Part shown: positions 15,474-22,486 of the stretch, in pieces
Layout of the letters: each line of letters starts with the position of its first letter
How positions within the stretch are numbered: position 1 is the first letter of the stretch
Assembly (NCBI RefSeq): GCF_003258605.2
Contig: NZ_CP031264.1
Location: 1,550,001 to 1,614,000, forward strand
Direction: 5' to 3'
Origin: Peterkaempfera bronchialis
GTDB lineage: Bacteria; Actinomycetota; Actinomycetes; Streptomycetales; Streptomycetaceae
DNA: 64,000 nt
Made by a program: the position numbers and the translations under genes
The notes under the pieces: generated by a model
Told to the model about the DNA's origin: nothing
The model's input: the letters and a program-made list of their open reading frames with translations, nothing else
The model's database searches: none

Positions 15474-16628
15474 TCAGCGGGTGAGGGCGGCGAAGGGGAC
15501 CGGGGCGGTGGTGGGCTGGGGTTCGGGGTGGGCCGGGTGGGTCCAGAGGCCCGCGTCGGCCAGCAGGGGCAGCACGCCCTCGCCGAACCAGTAGGCCTCC
15601 TCGACGTGGGGGTGCCCGGAGAGGATGAACTCGTCGATGCCGAGCCGGTGGTACTCGGTGATCCGTTCCGCGACCTCGGCATGGCTGCCCACCAGCGCGG
15701 TCCCGGCGCCGCCCCGGACCAGCCCGATCCCCGCCCAGAGGTTCGGTGCGACCTCCAGCCCGTCCCGGCCGCCGCCGTGCAGGGCGAGCATGCGCCGCTG
15801 CCCCTCGGACTCGCTGCGCGCCAGCCCCGCCTGGACGGCCTGGACGGTCTCCGGGGCGAAGCCGTCCAGCAGCCGCCGGGCCTCGGCCCATGCCTGGTCG
15901 GCGGTGTCCCGGGTGATGACGTGCAGCCGGATGCCGAAGCGGACGGTGCGGCCCGCCCGCCCCGCCAGGCGGCGGATCCAGGCGATCTTCTCGGCGACCT
16001 GCGCCGGCGGTTCGCCCCAGGTGAGGTAGACGTCGCTGTGGCGGGCCGCGACATCCCCGGCGGCGGGCGAGGAGCCGCCGAAGTAGACCTCCGGGACGGG
16101 GTCGGGCAGCCGGCCGAGCCGGGCCTGCTCGACCCGCAGGTGGTCTCCGGTGAAGTCGACCGTGCCGCCCTGCCACAGGGCTCGGACGATCTCCAGGAAC
16201 TCGCCGGTCCTGGCGTAGCGGGCGTCCTTGTCCAGGAAGTCGCCGTATGCCCGCTGCTCATGGCTCTCGCCGCCGGTGACCACGTTCAGCAGCAGCCTGC
16301 CGCCGCTGTGCCGCTGGAAGGTGGTGGCCATCTGGGCGGCGAGGGTGGGGGCGACCAGGCCGGGGCGGAAGGCGACCAGGAACTTCAGCCGCTCGGTCTC
16401 CCGGGCGAGCATGGCGGTGGTGAGCCAGGCGTCCTCGCACCAGGCGCCGGTGGGGGTGAGGGCGCCGGTGAAGCCCAACTCCTCGGCGGCGCGGGCGACC
16501 TGGGTGAGGTAGCCGAGGGTGGCGGGGCGTTGGCCGCCCGCAGCCGCTGCGGGCAGGCCGTGCCCGCCTCCGACCACATGGCGGCTGTCGCCGTAGGTGG
16601 GCAGGAACCAGTGGAAGGTCAGGGCCAC
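15474..16628 (-). CDS. ssuD: FMNH2-dependent alkanesulfonate monooxygenase
   Basis: 384 residues, bacterial luciferase-like fold, typical SsuD length and motifs (LTFHWFLPTYGDSR at the N-terminus, RFLLNVVTGG-like GRLLLNVVTGGESHEQRAYGDF, PEVYFGGSSPAA). It oxidises alkanesulfonates with O2 and FMNH2 to aldehyde and sulfite, releasing sulfur for assimilation. It is the last gene of a five-gene operon, 45 bases after the SfnB-like gene; reduced flavin should come from the NADPH:FMN reductase encoded upstream. GTG start at 16628 with GGAGA six bases before. Confidence 0.9.
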   Translation of the reverse strand: MALTFHWFLPTYGDSRHVVGGGHGLPAAAAGGQRPATLGYLTQVARAAEELGFTGALTPTGAWCEDAWLTTAMLARETERLKFLVAFRPGLVAPTLAAQMATTFQRHSGGRLLLNVVTGGESHEQRAYGDFLDKDARYARTGEFLEIVRALWQGGTVDFTGDHLRVEQARLGRLPDPVPEVYFGGSSPAAGDVAARHSDVYLTWGEPPAQVAEKIAWIRRLAGRAGRTVRFGIRLHVITRDTADQAWAEARRLLDGFAPETVQAVQAGLARSESEGQRRMLALHGGGRDGLEVAPNLWAGIGLVRGGAGTALVGSHAEVAERITEYHRLGIDEFILSGHPHVEEAYWFGEGVLPLLADAGLWTHPAHPEPQPTTAPVPFAALTR

Positions 16629-16673: not shown

Positions 16674-17897
16674 TCAGAGCAGGCCGTGGCGGGGCGGCCG
16701 GGTGCCGTTGAGCAGGTAGCGGCCGATGTGCTGGACCTTCCAGCGGGCCGGGTCGTGCAGGGTGTGGGTGCGGGCGTCGCGCCAGTGGCGGTGGAGGCCG
16801 AGGCTGTCCAGGGCGGCGCGGGTACCGGCCAGTTCGAAGAGGGCGCTGCCGGTGTCGACCGCCGTGGTGGCGGCATGGGCCTTGGCGGCGGCCACGGCGA
16901 TGGACGCCTCGGCGGCGGTGTCGTCGGTGAGGTCGGCCGTGGCGGTGTCCACCGCGCGGGCGGCCGCGGTCAGCAGTGCCTCGGTGGCGCGCAGTTGGAT
17001 GCCCAGTTCGCCGAAGCGCTGGATCAGCAGCGGGTCCTCGGCGGCGGTCGCCACGCCGCTCTCGAACCAGGGGCGGCTCCTGGTACGGACGAACTCGGCG
17101 GCCTCGGCCAGGGCTGCGGCGGCGATGCCGGTGTCGATGGCGGTGTGCAGCAGTTGGGCGACGGCGCCATGCAGTTGGGGCCCCTGGAAGGTCAGGTGGT
17201 GGGGGACGACGCGGTCGGCCGGGATGCGGACCCCCTCCAGTCGGACGGTGCCGCTGGCGGTGGTGCGCTGGCCCATGCCGTCCCAGTCGTCGGCGACGGT
17301 CAGCCCGGGGGCGTCGCGCGGCACATAGGCGACCTGGAGGGTGCCGTCCTCGGCCCGGGCGAGGACGGGGATCCAGTGCGCGAAGAGGGCGCCGGTGCAG
17401 TAGTGCTTGACGCCGGTGAGCAGGTGGGAGCCGTCCGCCGCCGGGGTGAGCCGGGTGCGGATGTCCTGGATGTGCCGGGTACCGGCCTCGGACTGGGCGT
17501 TGCCGAGCCGGCGCCCGGCCAGCACCTCGCGGTGGAAGAACTCCTGCTGCGCGGGGGTGCCCTGGCGGCGCAGCACCCCCACATAGACGAAGTGGCTCTG
17601 CGGGATCTGGGCGAGGCTGGGGTCGGCGGTGGCCAGCAGGCGGAAGACCTCGGCCAGGGTCTCGGCCCTGACGTCGGCTCCGCCGTGGGCGGCGGGCACG
17701 GTGATGCCGAGCAGACCGGAGGCGGAGAGGCGCTCGACCTCGGCGTACGGGAGCCTGCGGTCCCGGTCGCGCTCTGCGGCTCCGGCGCGGAACTCGTCGG
17801 CCAGCCGCGCGGCCACGGCCAGCGCTTCGGCGTCGTCGGCGATCACCCGTGCGGGGTCGGCTGCGGTCGCGGTGCGGACGGGGGCGGGGGCGGTCAC
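16674..17897 (-). CDS. sfnB: SfnB-family acyl-CoA dehydrogenase-like sulfur acquisition oxidoreductase
   Basis: 407 residues with the acyl-CoA dehydrogenase fold (RLSASGLLGITVPAAHGGAD; LPQSHF-like AQIPQSHFVYVGVLR; DDWDGMGQRTTASG; C-terminal ARTHTLHDPARWKVQHIGRY). The HTLHDP and GMGQR signatures point to the SfnB/DszC group, flavin-dependent oxygenases linked to sulfone and thiophene sulfur use, not beta-oxidation. GTG start at 17897 with AGGAG six bases upstream. It lies 29 bases after the FMN reductase gene in the same operon. The substrate is not evident. Confidence 0.85.
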   Translation of the reverse strand: MTAPAPVRTATAADPARVIADDAEALAVAARLADEFRAGAAERDRDRRLPYAEVERLSASGLLGITVPAAHGGADVRAETLAEVFRLLATADPSLAQIPQSHFVYVGVLRRQGTPAQQEFFHREVLAGRRLGNAQSEAGTRHIQDIRTRLTPAADGSHLLTGVKHYCTGALFAHWIPVLARAEDGTLQVAYVPRDAPGLTVADDWDGMGQRTTASGTVRLEGVRIPADRVVPHHLTFQGPQLHGAVAQLLHTAIDTGIAAAALAEAAEFVRTRSRPWFESGVATAAEDPLLIQRFGELGIQLRATEALLTAAARAVDTATADLTDDTAAEASIAVAAAKAHAATTAVDTGSALFELAGTRAALDSLGLHRHWRDARTHTLHDPARWKVQHIGRYLLNGTRPPRHGLL

Positions 17898-17926: not shown

Positions 17927-18487
17927 TCAGCCGGCGGCGGCGAGGGCCGGGGCCGGGACCGGCCGGAGGGCGGCGGAGAACTGGTCGACCAGCCGGCCCA
18001 GGATGGCCTCGGTGCCGGGCTCGACGGCGGTGGTGCCGTCCTCCCGTACGGTGATGTGCCGGTCCAGGACGAACCAGCCCGGGACGATGTGCAGCGCCCC
18101 CATGGAGGAGAGCACCGGCCGCAGCGCGTAGTCGACGGCCAGGGCGTGCGCGGTGGAGCCTCCGGTGGCCAGCGGCAGCACGGTCTTGTCCGCCAGCGCG
18201 TACTGCGGCAGCAGGTCGAGCAGCGACTTCAGCAGGCCGGAGTAGGCGGCCTTGTAGACGGGGGTGCCGATGACCACGCCGTCGGCCTGGTGGAAGAGTG
18301 CGGCGGCGCGGACCACCTCGGGGTGGCTCGTGTCCGCGCCGAGCAGGGCTTCGGCGGGCAGCGTGCGGGCGTCGAGGGGTATCACGTGGTGGCCCTGGGC
18401 GGTGAGCCGCGCATCGAGGTGGCGGAGCAGCCGGGCGGTGCGGGAGGTGGCGGAGGGGCTTCCGGAGACGGACAGGACGGTGGCCAT
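17927..18487 (-). CDS. NADPH-dependent FMN reductase (SsuE/MsuE-like)
   Basis: 186 residues with the flavodoxin-like FMN reductase fold: VLSVSGSPSATSRTARLL (phosphate loop), ADGVVIGTPVYKAAYSGLLK and LPLATGGSTAHALAVDYALRPVL. It supplies FMNH2 to the two luciferase-like monooxygenases and two acyl-CoA-dehydrogenase-like oxygenases of the operon. The ATG at 18487 is preferred; a longer frame upstream is only translation of the 9-bp repeat array. Confidence 0.9.
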   Translation of the reverse strand: MATVLSVSGSPSATSRTARLLRHLDARLTAQGHHVIPLDARTLPAEALLGADTSHPEVVRAAALFHQADGVVIGTPVYKAAYSGLLKSLLDLLPQYALADKTVLPLATGGSTAHALAVDYALRPVLSSMGALHIVPGWFVLDRHITVREDGTTAVEPGTEAILGRLVDQFSAALRPVPAPALAAAG

Positions 18488-18526
18488 GGGGATTCTCGCC
18501 TTCGCGGCAGGAGGAGCGGCAGGGGG

Positions 18527-18580
18527 TGACAGCAGTGACATCAGTGACAGCAGTGACAGGGGTGACAGGAGTGACATCAG
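18527..18580. repeat. Six tandem 9-bp TGACAnnnG units inside the sulfur operon
   Basis: Units start at 18527, 18536, 18545, 18554, 18563 and 18572 (TGACAGCAG, TGACATCAG and variants). They fill the 150-base gap between the DszC-like and FMN reductase genes, the widest gap in the operon. Confidence 0.75.
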
Positions 18581-18637: not shown

Positions 18638-19858
18638 TCAGGAGTACCAGGTGGGCTCGGGGATCTCGTCGGTGAGGACGAACCGGCCGACCTCGCGGCG
18701 CTTGTAGGCGACCGGGTCGTGCAGGGTGTGGGTGCGGACATTGCGCCAGAAGCGGTCCAGGCCCTCGGCGGCGGCGGTGGCGCGGGCGCCGGTGACCTCG
18801 AAGATGCGGTGGGTGACCTCCAGGGCGACATCGGTGGCCCGCGCCTTCACGGCGGCGACCCGGACCTCGAACTCGCCCCGGCTGCGGGCGGTCACGGCGT
18901 CCGGGTCGTCATGGAGCCGCTGCCCCTCCTCGGCGATCCGGTCGGCCAGCGCCTCGGCGGCCCAGAGCTTGGCGGTGAGGTCGCCGTAGGCGTCGATGAC
19001 ATAGGGCTCGTCGACGGCCTGCTCATAGCCGCCGTGCAGCCAGGAGCGGGACTTGGTGCGGGTGTAGGTGGCGGCGGTCTCCAGCGCTCCGGCGGCGATG
19101 CCCAGGTAGAAGTTGGCGAAGACCAGCTGGATGGTGGGCACGTTCAGGGTGTTGTAGACGCGCGGCTGGAACTGCTTGTCGACATAGCCGGCGGCCGAGG
19201 CCCAGGGGACGCGGACGCCGTCGATGGTGACGCTGCCGCTCTCGGTGAGGCGCTGGCCGATGTTGTCCCAGTCGTCGTGGAAGGTCAGACCCTGGCTGTC
19301 GGACGGGACGATGGCGAAGACATGCTGGTCGGTGCCGTCCAGGACGCCTTCCAGCACGGTGACGTCGGAGACCCGGCTGCCGGTGGAGAAGGTCTTGCGG
19401 CCGGTGAAGACCAGGGTGTCGCCCTCGTCCCGGACCACGACATCGCGGTCGCGCGGGTTGACGGCCCCGCCGAAGAACCACTGCCGGCGGGCGGCCTCGG
19501 CCTCCACCTGCTCCCACTGCTCGCGGGTGCCGACCAGCCGGGCGGCCCAGTTCCAGAGGTAGTGGTAGCCCAGCAGTTGGGCGATGGAGCCGTCCGCCTT
19601 GGCCACCTCACGTACGACGCGGTAGGCGGTGGGCCAGTCCTGTCCACCGCCGCCGTGCTGGACCGGGCCCAGCAGGGTGACCAGGCCGGAGTCCTTCAGC
19701 AGCCGGACCTCGGCGTGCGGGGTGGCACCGGCCCGGTCGCGGGCGGCGGCGTCGGTGGCCAGGACGGCGGCGACCTCGGCGGCGCGGTCGATCCAGCCCT
19801 GGGTACCGGTCGGGGCCGGGCGGGTCTGCCAGTCGGCCGGGGTGGCGGTGGTGCTCAT
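18638..19858 (-). CDS. DszC/SfnB-like flavin-dependent oxygenase (acyl-CoA dehydrogenase fold)
   Basis: 406 residues, acyl-CoA dehydrogenase fold with DszC-like features: QLLGYHYLWNWAARLVG, FFGGAVNPRD, FTGRKTFSTGS, FHDDWDNIGQRLTESGS and C-terminal RTHTLHDPVAYKRREVGRF. DszC oxidises dibenzothiophene to the sulfone; relatives act on other thio-compounds. It is probably an FMNH2-dependent S-oxygenase. ATG at 19858 with AGGAGA seven bases upstream. It is the second structural gene of the operon, a paralogue of the sfnB-like gene at 16674. Confidence 0.87.
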   Translation of the reverse strand: MSTTATPADWQTRPAPTGTQGWIDRAAEVAAVLATDAAARDRAGATPHAEVRLLKDSGLVTLLGPVQHGGGGQDWPTAYRVVREVAKADGSIAQLLGYHYLWNWAARLVGTREQWEQVEAEAARRQWFFGGAVNPRDRDVVVRDEGDTLVFTGRKTFSTGSRVSDVTVLEGVLDGTDQHVFAIVPSDSQGLTFHDDWDNIGQRLTESGSVTIDGVRVPWASAAGYVDKQFQPRVYNTLNVPTIQLVFANFYLGIAAGALETAATYTRTKSRSWLHGGYEQAVDEPYVIDAYGDLTAKLWAAEALADRIAEEGQRLHDDPDAVTARSRGEFEVRVAAVKARATDVALEVTHRIFEVTGARATAAAEGLDRFWRNVRTHTLHDPVAYKRREVGRFVLTDEIPEPTWYS

Positions 19859-19937: not shown

Positions 19938-21071
19938 TCAGGCCAGGGCTGCGGCGGCCGGGTCCGGCTCGGCGGGGGTCTGCGCCTCCAGCTCGCGTAC
20001 CAGCGGCAGCACCCTCCGGCCGAAGTACTCGACCTCCTCCAGGTAGTGCAGGAAGCCGAGCAGGAAGAGGTCCACGCCGAGCCGCTTGTAGGCGACGATC
20101 CGCTCCGCGATCTGCTCCGGGGTGCCGATCAGGCCTGTGCGGAAGCCGTCGTTGTACTGGACCAGGTCCTCGAAGGAGGAGTCCTGCCACATGCCCCTGC
20201 CGTCGGCGGTGGACTGCCCGGCCTGCCGGACGGCGGCGCCGAAGCCGTGCACCGCCTCGGTGTCGGCCTTGGCGACGATCTCCCGCAGCACCTCGCGGGC
20301 CTCGGCCTCGGTGTCCCGGGCGATCAGGAAGCCATTGAGGCCGAAGCGCGGTGCGGGGCGTCCGGCCAGCTTGGCGGCGGCGGCGATGTCGCCGAGCTGC
20401 TCGGTGACGCCGTCGAAGTCGCGGCCGTTGCTGAAGTACCAGTCGGAGACCCGTCCGGCCATCGCGCGGGCGGCGGTGGAGTTGCCGCCCTGGAAGATCT
20501 CCGGGTGCGGGCGGCCGGGGCTGCCGAGCGGCTTGGGCTTGAGGGAGAAGTCGCGGATGCGGTAGAAGTCACCGGCCAGTTCCGCGTGGTCCTCGGTCCA
20601 GATGGCGCGCAGCGCCCGGATGAACTCCTCCGAGCGGCGGTAGCGCTCGTCGTGCTCCAGCCAGGGCTCGCCCAGCGCGGTGAACTCGCCCTTGAACCAG
20701 CCGCTGACGACATTCACGGCGAACCGGCCGCCGGAGAGGTGGTCGGCGGTGGCGCCCAGCTTGGCCAGCACGCCGGGGTGCCAGAGTCCCGGGTGGACGG
20801 CGGCGATGACCTTCAGCCGCTCGGTGGCCAGCAGCAGCGCCAGGCTGAAGCTGGTGGACTCGTGCTGGTACTCGGCGCCGTAGCTGGCCATGTAGCGGAC
20901 CTGGCTCAGCGCGTAGTCGAATCCGCTGTTCTCCGCCAGCACGGCCAGCTCGCGGTTGTAGTCGTAGCCCCAGTCGGTGCGCTGCTCGATCCTGCTGGTG
21001 ACCAGGCCACCGCTGACATTGGGCACCCAGTAGGCGAAACGCACGGGTTCGGAGGACGGCGGGACGGACAT
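19938..21071 (-). CDS. sfnG: Dimethyl sulfone monooxygenase, SfnG-like
   Basis: 377 residues, luciferase-like flavin monooxygenase. SfnG features include FAYWVPNVSGGLVTSRIEQR at the start, AVHPGLWHPGVLAKL, NVVSGWFKGEF and PEIFQGGNSTAAR. SfnG converts dimethyl sulfone to methanesulfinate with FMNH2. ATG at 21071 (GGGAG before it) is chosen over an upstream ATG that would add ten residues. It is the first structural gene after the leader peptide; the 175 bases between leader and sfnG hold short GC-rich inverted repeats that could form attenuator structures. Confidence 0.9.
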   Translation of the reverse strand: MSVPPSSEPVRFAYWVPNVSGGLVTSRIEQRTDWGYDYNRELAVLAENSGFDYALSQVRYMASYGAEYQHESTSFSLALLLATERLKVIAAVHPGLWHPGVLAKLGATADHLSGGRFAVNVVSGWFKGEFTALGEPWLEHDERYRRSEEFIRALRAIWTEDHAELAGDFYRIRDFSLKPKPLGSPGRPHPEIFQGGNSTAARAMAGRVSDWYFSNGRDFDGVTEQLGDIAAAAKLAGRPAPRFGLNGFLIARDTEAEAREVLREIVAKADTEAVHGFGAAVRQAGQSTADGRGMWQDSSFEDLVQYNDGFRTGLIGTPEQIAERIVAYKRLGVDLFLLGFLHYLEEVEYFGRRVLPLVRELEAQTPAEPDPAAAALA

Positions 21072-21246
21072 CGGGGACTCCCGGTACAGGAAAGTGGGCA
21101 TGGCGGAACAGCACCCGGAGATTCATCGGGAAAGCCCGGAAAAAGGGCCGGGTGAATCAGGGGAGGAAGAAAGGGAAGGAGCGCACCGGCGGCGTGGGCC
21201 TGGTCCCGGTCACGGGGTGGCGGCGGCGTGGTGGCAGGGCCGGAAC

Positions 21247-21333
21247 TCAGGCTCCGCAGCAGCAACAGAAGGCGCTGGAGACACGCGCGAGGTCGACATG
21301 GCGTCGCCGCGTGAGGTCCTGTCGCATCTTCAT
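21247..21333 (-). CDS. Cysteine-rich leader peptide of the sulfur operon
   Basis: A 28-residue ORF: MKM, then RRRHVDLARVSS, then AFCCCCGA and stop. Four consecutive Cys codons (TGT TGC TGC TGC) sit three codons before the stop. The RRxHVDLxRV core followed by Cys residues matches the putative leader peptides found before sulfur genes in actinobacteria. In mycobacteria, leaderless polycysteine ORFs are known cysteine-responsive attenuators. No Shine-Dalgarno is visible; a TTGACG/TTCAAT promoter places the transcript start at the A of the ATG (21333), so it is probably leaderless. Inference: ribosomes stalling on the Cys codons when cysteine is scarce switch on sfnG and the genes downstream. 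Confidence 0.85.
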   Translation of the reverse strand: MKMRQDLTRRRHVDLARVSSAFCCCCGA

Positions 21334-21340
21334 GGGAAGG

Positions 21341-21370
21341 ATTGAACCAAGCCGGCCCCCTGTCCGTCAA
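21341..21370 (-). promoter_or_regulatory. Promoter of the leader peptide and sulfur operon
   Basis: On the minus strand, -35 TTGACG (21370-21365), an 18-base spacer, then -10-like TTCAAT (21346-21341). Seven bases separate the -10 from the ATG of the leader peptide, so transcription should start at or within a base of the start codon. Confidence 0.6.
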
Positions 21371-21410
21371 GAAAATCGGGGACGCGAAAAGCCGCCGCAA
21401 TCCTTTGGCC

Positions 21411-21446
21411 AGGGAATACGCGGCGATTCGGTATCCACGATTCCCT
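21411..21446. promoter_or_regulatory. Inverted repeat, candidate LysR-type binding site
   Basis: Perfect 7-bp arms, AGGGAAT (21411-21417) and ATTCCCT (21440-21446), lie 22 bases apart between the divergent lysR gene and the sulfur operon promoter. This is where LysR regulators normally bind; which site is bound is inference. Confidence 0.4.
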
Positions 21447-21493
21447 GATAGGGTTTCCCTTCAGGACCGGGCCGGGGAGGGGCGGACACCGCT

Positions 21494-22486
21494 GTGCGGA
21501 TCGAGCAGCTGGAGTACATCACCGCGGTCACCCGGCTGGGCTCGCTGCGCCGCGCCGCCGAGGAACTGCACATCTCGCAGCCCGCCCTCAGCGAGACGGT
21601 GCGCAATCTGGAGCGCGAACTCGGCGTCGACCTGCTCGACCGCAGGCGCTCCGGAGCCAGGATCAGCGACGAGGGCAGCGAGCTGCTGCCGCATATCGTC
21701 GGCGTGCTGGACGCGGTCGACCGGCTCCGCCGTGCCGCCCACGACCAGCATCTGACCAGCCGCATGGTGCGTCTCGGCACGGTCAACGCCGCCACCGTCC
21801 CGCTGCTGGTGCCCACCGTGCGCGCCTTCCGCGAGGCCCACCCGGGCACCCAGGTGGAGGTGGTCGGGGCGCAGCAGGCCGAGATCCACCGCGCGCTGCT
21901 GGAAGGCAGCCTCGACCTGGGGCTGGTGAACTATCTGCGGGGCGACGACCTGCCCCCGGACTTCCAGGCCACCGAGCTGCTGCGCGGGCGGCCGGTGGTC
22001 TGCATGCGGCCCGACAGCCCGCTGGCCGCGCTCCCGGCGGTCCGGGTGGCCGATCTGCTCCGGGAACCGCTGATCGTGATGCGGGCCGGGTATGTGATGC
22101 ACCGTTATGTGCACCGCCTGCTGGCGGACCGCACCCCCGCCTTCTCCTACTCCACCGACGGTGCGGAGATGGGCAAGCTCATGGTCGCCGAAGGGCTCGG
22201 CGCCACGGTGCTGCCCGACTTCAGCGTCACCGGGGACCCGCTGGAGCGGCTGGGGGCGATCACCCACCGGCCGCTCGCGGACGACGACACCGACGTCCTG
22301 CTGGTCCTCCAGCGCCGCCGGTCGGGCACCGTGCCGCGGGCGGCCCGCAGTCTGCACGAGAGCTTCGTACGGTGCGCCGAGCAGTACCGCCGCAGCCCGG
22401 CCGGCGGTCAGCCGCCGGCGTCCCCGAGTTCCCCGAGTTCCCCGAGTTCTGCGGGGACGGCGGCGCCGAGGGCGTCAAGGAGCTGA
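21494..22486 (+). CDS. LysR-family transcriptional regulator of the sulfur operon (predicted)
   Basis: 330 residues. The N-terminal LysR helix-turn-helix is clear (MRIEQLEYITAVTRLGSLRR, AAEELHISQPALSETVRNLE) and is followed by the periplasmic-binding-protein-like effector domain (about residues 90-300). GTG start at 21494 after GGGAGGGG. Its divergent position from the leader-sfnG operon suggests it controls sulfur scavenging as CysB/Cbl or SfnR do elsewhere. The C-terminus is a low-complexity SPSSPSSPSS tail, encoded by 9-bp repeats that overlap the end of the convergent DUF302 gene by 79 bases. Confidence 0.9.
   Translation: MRIEQLEYITAVTRLGSLRRAAEELHISQPALSETVRNLERELGVDLLDRRRSGARISDEGSELLPHIVGVLDAVDRLRRAAHDQHLTSRMVRLGTVNAATVPLLVPTVRAFREAHPGTQVEVVGAQQAEIHRALLEGSLDLGLVNYLRGDDLPPDFQATELLRGRPVVCMRPDSPLAALPAVRVADLLREPLIVMRAGYVMHRYVHRLLADRTPAFSYSTDGAEMGKLMVAEGLGATVLPDFSVTGDPLERLGAITHRPLADDDTDVLLVLQRRRSGTVPRAARSLHESFVRCAEQYRRSPAGGQPPASPSSPSSPSSAGTAAPRASRS

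Follow-up and report, generated by a model that had tools for sequence, protein, structure and literature searches.

The window analysed is a stretch of 64,000 nucleotides from the genome of Peterkaempfera bronchialis (positions 1,550,001 to 1,614,000 of contig NZ_CP031264.1), and the coordinates given below are those of this stretch unless a genome and contig are named. Its minus strand carries a group of organosulfur genes headed by sfnG (19938-21071), which encodes a dimethylsulfone monooxygenase (TIGR04021, 623 bits for a cut-off of 383). The next gene (18638-19858) codes for a DszC/SfnB-like flavin monooxygenase with an acyl-CoA dehydrogenase fold, whose scores lie under the curated DszC and SfnB cut-offs. 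It is followed by ssuE (17927-18577, start codon uncertain), encoding an NADPH-dependent FMN reductase (TIGR03567, 212 bits, cut-off 164), by a gene for a sulfur acquisition oxidoreductase of the SfnB family (16674-17897; TIGR04022, 560 bits, cut-off 431) and by an ssuD-like gene (15474-16628) for an alkanesulfonate monooxygenase, which with 464 bits falls just under the TIGR03565 cut-off of 518. The intergenic gaps are of about 30 to 80 nt on the same strand, so that an operon running from sfnG to the ssuD-like gene is likely. These profile matches agree with an earlier reading made from the sequence only, which had placed a leader ahead of sfnG and four more desulfurisation genes. The start codon of sfnG (ATG at 21071) is preceded by the Shine-Dalgarno sequence GGGAG (21078-21082, minus strand). 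On the plus strand, a divergent gene (21494-22486) encodes a regulator with matches to the LysR family, none of them over an equivalog cut-off; this regulator is likely to provide a second layer of control. An inverted repeat, AGGGAAT-N22-ATTCCCT, is localized at 21446-21411, in the interval that separates lysR from the leader, and represents a candidate regulator site.

Upstream of sfnG, the minus strand contains a short open reading frame of 28 codons (21333-21247) ending with a TGA stop codon, which encodes the peptide MKMRQDLTRRRHVDLARVSSAFCCCCGA. This ORF and its FCCCCGA end are as the sequence-only reading had described them. The peptide matches the NCBIfam family NF042934 (cis_reg_atten, putative leader peptide) with 36 bits and an E-value of 3.6e-9, the cut-off being 27. 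The RRRHVDLARV core that had been noted lies within the conserved RRHVDLxRVxSAx segment of these actinobacterial leaders. The score obtained with the narrower family of Ms5788A leaders (equivalog NF042933) is 28.8 bits, under the cut-off of 45, and the window leader is thus outside this family. Since it belongs to the known family NF042934, the locus is not of a new kind. No Rfam family was matched in the region 20900-21600, with E-values up to 1.

Eighty loci encoding close relatives of SfnG were compared, of which 65 are from Streptomycetaceae. The leader is found upstream of sfnG in 64 of these 65 loci, and GGAG precedes the sfnG start in all 65. In the 64 leader-bearing loci, the neighbouring genes include lysR (61 loci), ssuE (59), sfnB (59), an ssuD-like gene (58) and a dszC-like gene (37). 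A search by regular expression detected no leader at the 15 other loci (Actinomadura, Microbispora, Nocardia, Gordonia and others), where divergent leaders could escape such a search. The gene sfnG is itself patchily distributed (14 of 150 genomes of the family), and the leader pattern occurs in 100 of 101 family genomes against none for a control with the reversed pattern. From the 64 of 65 loci and from this control, we conclude that the leader is conserved far beyond what chance would give in the sequences compared.

A promoter is predicted immediately before the leader (21370-21341, minus strand), composed of the -35 element TTGACG (21370-21365), a spacer of 18 nt and the -10 element TTCAAT (21346-21341). 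Seven nucleotides (CCTTCCC) separate TTCAAT from the ATG at 21333, and no purine-rich Shine-Dalgarno sequence precedes this ATG in the window. The sequence thus contains the promoter as it had been read, seven bases before the ATG and without a Shine-Dalgarno motif; in a generic sigma-70 scan, it did not pass. With this promoter, transcription is predicted to begin at about 21333 and to give a leaderless mRNA. The distance from TTGAC to the ATG is of 36-37 nt in 51 of the 65 leaders (that of the window counted), despite a variable sequence between the two elements. This geometry is missing in the other 14 leaders, 10 of which have an SD-like sequence. Leaderless initiation, predicted for the window and kept in its geometry in most orthologues, would therefore be usual in these leaders but not obligatory.

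The cysteine codons of the window leader form a contiguous run, TGT (21267-21265) followed by TGC TGC TGC (21264-21256), and the run thus spans 21267-21256 rather than 21250-21265 as it had been placed. Contiguous cysteine codons are also what characterizes the mycobacterial polycysteine leaders. However, the number of cysteines is between one and three in 64 of the 65 leaders and reaches four only in the window; among the ten paralogues in the P. bronchialis genome, the majority have a single cysteine. The three additional TGC codons are not a conserved feature of the orthologues, and the four-cysteine run is not supported as the working feature of the leader.

What is conserved is the peptide core RRHVDLxRVxSAx followed by one cysteine codon in a fixed register, and this codon is UGU. 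It lies 13 codons downstream of the first R of RRHVDL, or 10 downstream of the V, and is TGT in 65 of 65 orthologues; in the window it corresponds to the TGT at 21267-21265, which we propose as the sensing codon. The same position is occupied by TGT in each of the 11 leaders that the genome contains, whereas in its ordinary genes only 16 of 221 cysteine codons (about 7%) are TGT, so that 11 of 11 would be expected by chance with a probability of about 3e-13 if the sites were independent. Searches with the leader pattern retrieved 288 TGT and no TGC sites in the 101 genomes of the family, 111 TGT sites and one TGC site in the class outside the family, and, when the Ser-Ala constraint was removed, 399 TGT and no TGC sites in 119 genomes of the order; as the sites are not phylogenetically independent, these values are counts and not probabilities. 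The contrast between cysteine positions within the same leaders is a stronger argument than these counts. In the leaders of the Ms5788A family, among which are polycysteine leaders like those investigated in mycobacteria, TGT is present in the same register in 29 of the 29 read, whereas the other cysteines are encoded by TGC in 24 of 27 cases at position +3 and in 18 of 24 at position +8. Likewise, the other cysteine codons of the leaders at sfnG loci are divided into 45 TGC and 20 TGT.

Several other origins of this UGU lock were considered and rejected. Phylogenetic inertia does not account for it, as the ten paralogues agree and the neighbouring codons vary synonymously as those of sfnG do (CAC 37 and CAT 28 for H; CGC 38, CGT 21, CGG 4 and AGG 2 for R). 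This variation also indicates that around RRHVDL it is the peptide that is conserved rather than the RNA sequence. The AGY-GCN requirement of the pattern did not create the lock, as the search without the Ser-Ala constraint gave the ratio 399:0, and the scan was not blind to TGC, since it detected one leader-like site with TGC in the class. A low codon bias of short ORFs was also examined: codons ending in T are more common in the leaders than in genes (14 of 67 for CAT and for GAT), well short of 100%. The single TGC case (G170:C282:7095-7130, RRHVDLLRVVSAACRAH) is the only leader-like ORF with TGC at the conserved cysteine codon, and the same genome has a TGT leader too. The base following the register codon is C in 53 of the 67 leaders read, against 27% after the cysteine codons of ordinary genes; as the residue after UGU would not yet be in the peptide at the stall, this preference also suggests a constraint on decoding. 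In the literature consulted, mainly outside subscription papers, we found no description of a UGU rule or of a leader of Streptomyces sfn/ssu genes. The UGU lock is thus a new observation made on a known kind of leader.

The two tRNA-Cys genes found in the genome both have the anticodon GCA (nearly all of the 66 tRNA matches having been read individually). It is thus presumed that the same tRNAs decode both UGC and UGU, the latter by a G-U wobble pair. The second of these genes (G000:C1:2346859-2347099) is divergent, with close matches in about 45 of 61 Streptomycetaceae genomes. A cysteine-rich short ORF (for example MDRKTALATMRCTCACCPAACRTAACCA) lies before it in 6 of the 12 loci that were read, and the cysteine codons of these ORFs comprise 27 TGT and 7 TGC. 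Such an ORF may be a cysteine attenuator of the accessory tRNA-Cys gene. At G005:C2:2067119-2067225, the second tRNA-Cys is matched by two separate segments with about 47 bases between them, an arrangement resembling an interrupted gene.

About ten further leaders of the same family were detected in the 7.09-Mb genome. The genes localized behind them encode a sulfite/nitrite reductase with an APS kinase, a rhodanese, a ThiS-family protein with a cysteine synthase, TauD, sulfonate uptake of the NMT1/SsuA type, a flavoprotein of the DszC/SfnB type, ABC systems of three SBP_bac_5 loci, and a 2OG-Fe(II) oxygenase adjoining a TPP enzyme. For two of them the scores against the family are low (16.2 and 15.5 bits), and it is the shared pattern that led to their acceptance. 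The leader preceding the rhodanese (C1:3040186-3040248, 45.2 bits) is the genome's own representative of the Ms5788A type. The leader at G000:C1:152545-152617 precedes the 2OG-Fe(II) oxygenase and then a TPP-dependent decarboxylase-like gene, an unusual member for a sulfur regulon. As these ten leaders stand before sulfur or transport operons, that of the window is part of a regulon. It does precede a combined sfn/dsz/ssu set, as had been proposed, and is one node among about eleven leader-headed loci.

The leader family and the type of mechanism are already known from NCBIfam and from the mycobacterial literature. The window leader has the same RRHVDLxRVxSAxC core as NF042934 and shows no difference at the level of the family, its cysteine run being unusually long. 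The leaderless polycysteine attenuators of mycobacteria, including the Ms5788A family (Canestrari et al. 2020), resemble it, to the extent that they are described in PMC9031893 and PMC13236596, in the predicted leaderless start, the motif [RK]RRxVDLxR and the cysteine codons before the stop. They also share the register-fixed UGU (Ms5788A family) and a downstream operon of sulfur or cysteine metabolism, which is what the window locus has. The kinship with them that had been suggested for this predicted leaderless cysteine-codon leader of an organosulfur operon is thus supported. The window leader differs by its target, a sulfone/sulfonate operon, and in that an RNA structure freeing the ribosome-binding site is not supported for it in silico. 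Cysteine leader peptides were also described for cys operons of Mycobacterium and Propionibacterium and for cbs of Bifidobacterium (Seliverstov et al. 2005; PMC1262725). Like the window locus, these loci have an ORF with a cysteine run, no terminator and a pyrimidine-rich spacer, and Rho was weakly proposed for the mycobacterial ones; sfn and ssu genes are not among their targets (PMC1262725). Finally, the uORFC-8-2 motif, found before cysS in Rhodobacterales, is a leader ORF with conserved cysteine codons for which attenuation was proposed (PMC8632094). In contrast to the window leader, this alphaproteobacterial motif has a terminator stem and is dominated by UGC, the opposite of the UGU lock (PMC8632094).

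Comparison thus establishes the conserved peptide, the UGU lock, its register and the gene context, and from these we infer a stall of the ribosome, its cause and its effect. The explanation that we consider probable is a ribosome-mediated, cysteine-responsive attenuator before the sfnG operon. From the promoter geometry, the transcript would begin with the leader ATG or very close to it, and translation of the leader would follow at once. When cysteinyl-tRNA is plentiful, the ribosome would quickly reach the stop codon and leave, and the downstream operon would be attenuated. When cysteinyl-tRNA is scarce, the ribosome would stall with UGU (21267-21265) in the A site, a codon that would be read through the G34-U wobble by the only kind of tRNA-Cys found, with anticodon GCA. 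The exit tunnel would then contain the nascent chain RRHVDLxRVxSAx, which probably favours stalling. Slow decoding combined with a nascent chain inclined to arrest would allow one codon to report sensitively on the level of charged tRNA-Cys, and the stall would relieve the attenuation of the operon. Wobble decoding is what we suggest as the reason for UGU; an unrecognised constraint on the nucleotide at its third base is a possible alternative. A point against this explanation is that a UGU stall would be near the stop codon and would alone cover little of the spacer.

The way in which a stall would be transmitted to the operon was considered from the spacer between the leader and sfnG (21072-21246, minus strand). 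This spacer of 175 nt contains much C (about 45%) and little G (about 22%), and is a candidate Rho-loading stretch. The spacers of orthologues and paralogues have a similar composition, and their excess of C over G is greater than that of 48 control upstream regions from the same loci (p = 4e-8). No terminator-like site was detected in the region 20900-21600, which therefore lacks the hairpin and U-run of a trp-type attenuator. A translational attenuation in the mycobacterial style, where the RNA of the leader and spacer hides the sfnG Shine-Dalgarno and a ribosome stalled at cysteine codons breaks the structure, has a precedent, since for mycobacteria a control of translation that depends on the speed of elongation was described (PMC9031893; PMC13236596). 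It is consistent with the sfnG Shine-Dalgarno being mostly paired in the predicted ensembles (mean unpaired 0.20) and with the spacers of many orthologues folding better than shuffled sequences (mean z -1.5). However, blocking a ribosome footprint at the cysteine codons left the mean accessibility of this motif unchanged in the 65 orthologues (0.20 to 0.20), an increase above 0.2 being observed in only 6% of them, and the freeing of a sequestered site by a stalled ribosome was thus not reproduced in silico. Furthermore, the spacer region of the window has no more structure than its shuffled versions, and the leader ORF itself shows no excess of structure (mean z 0.11). The spacers, which are long, vary among loci and show little conservation, and alifold found no supported conserved helix in their last 110 nt near the Shine-Dalgarno. 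The structure prediction that had been suggested for 21072-21246 thus did not yield a conserved attenuator structure, and we consider translational attenuation unlikely. An untranslated C-rich spacer, the lack of an intrinsic terminator and the lack of a stall-dependent change at the Shine-Dalgarno together favour Rho-dependent termination as the output step, which, deduced from composition, would be the weakest step of the proposed attenuator.

The remaining explanations concern what the leader senses and whether it matters. Less probable still than translational attenuation is that the nascent leader peptide is the sensor of a ligand (free cysteine or another sulfur metabolite), in the manner of TnaC and tryptophan, instead of empty tRNA-Cys. 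Such a sensor would fit the strong conservation of RRHVDLxR as a peptide at -13 to -6 from the cysteine codon, where synonymous variation is ordinary, and the fact that one cysteine codon suffices in most leaders. On the other hand, ligand sensing alone leaves the requirement for UGU unexplained, and a stall caused by cysteine would need a response of inverted sign for a scavenging operon. We give the least credit to the divergent LysR regulator being the main control, with a leader of little regulatory effect on the sfnG operon. This explanation agrees with the adjacency of lysR and the leader, kept in 61 of the 64 loci that have the leader, and with the inverted repeat between the two, but the leader peptide and its UGU are kept far better than neutral sequence and recur at ten other loci. 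The cysteine-responsive attenuator stalling at UGU remains the explanation that we prefer.

Beyond this locus, the leaders of Actinomycetes may share one gauge, composed of the peptide [RK]R[RL]x[VI]DLxR and a wobble-read UGU ten codons from the V, the cysteine runs being accessory; we see about equal reason to accept and to doubt this generalization. If it is true, the same single codon would also be the one through which the studied mycobacterial polycysteine attenuators act. Should the UGU lock prove causal, the choice between synonymous codons of one tRNA can be an essential regulatory feature. In P. bronchialis, one type of cysteine-sensing leader would govern sulfone and sulfonate scavenging together with sulfate reduction and cysteine synthesis, and the outcome would be a genome-wide regulon set by ribosomes.
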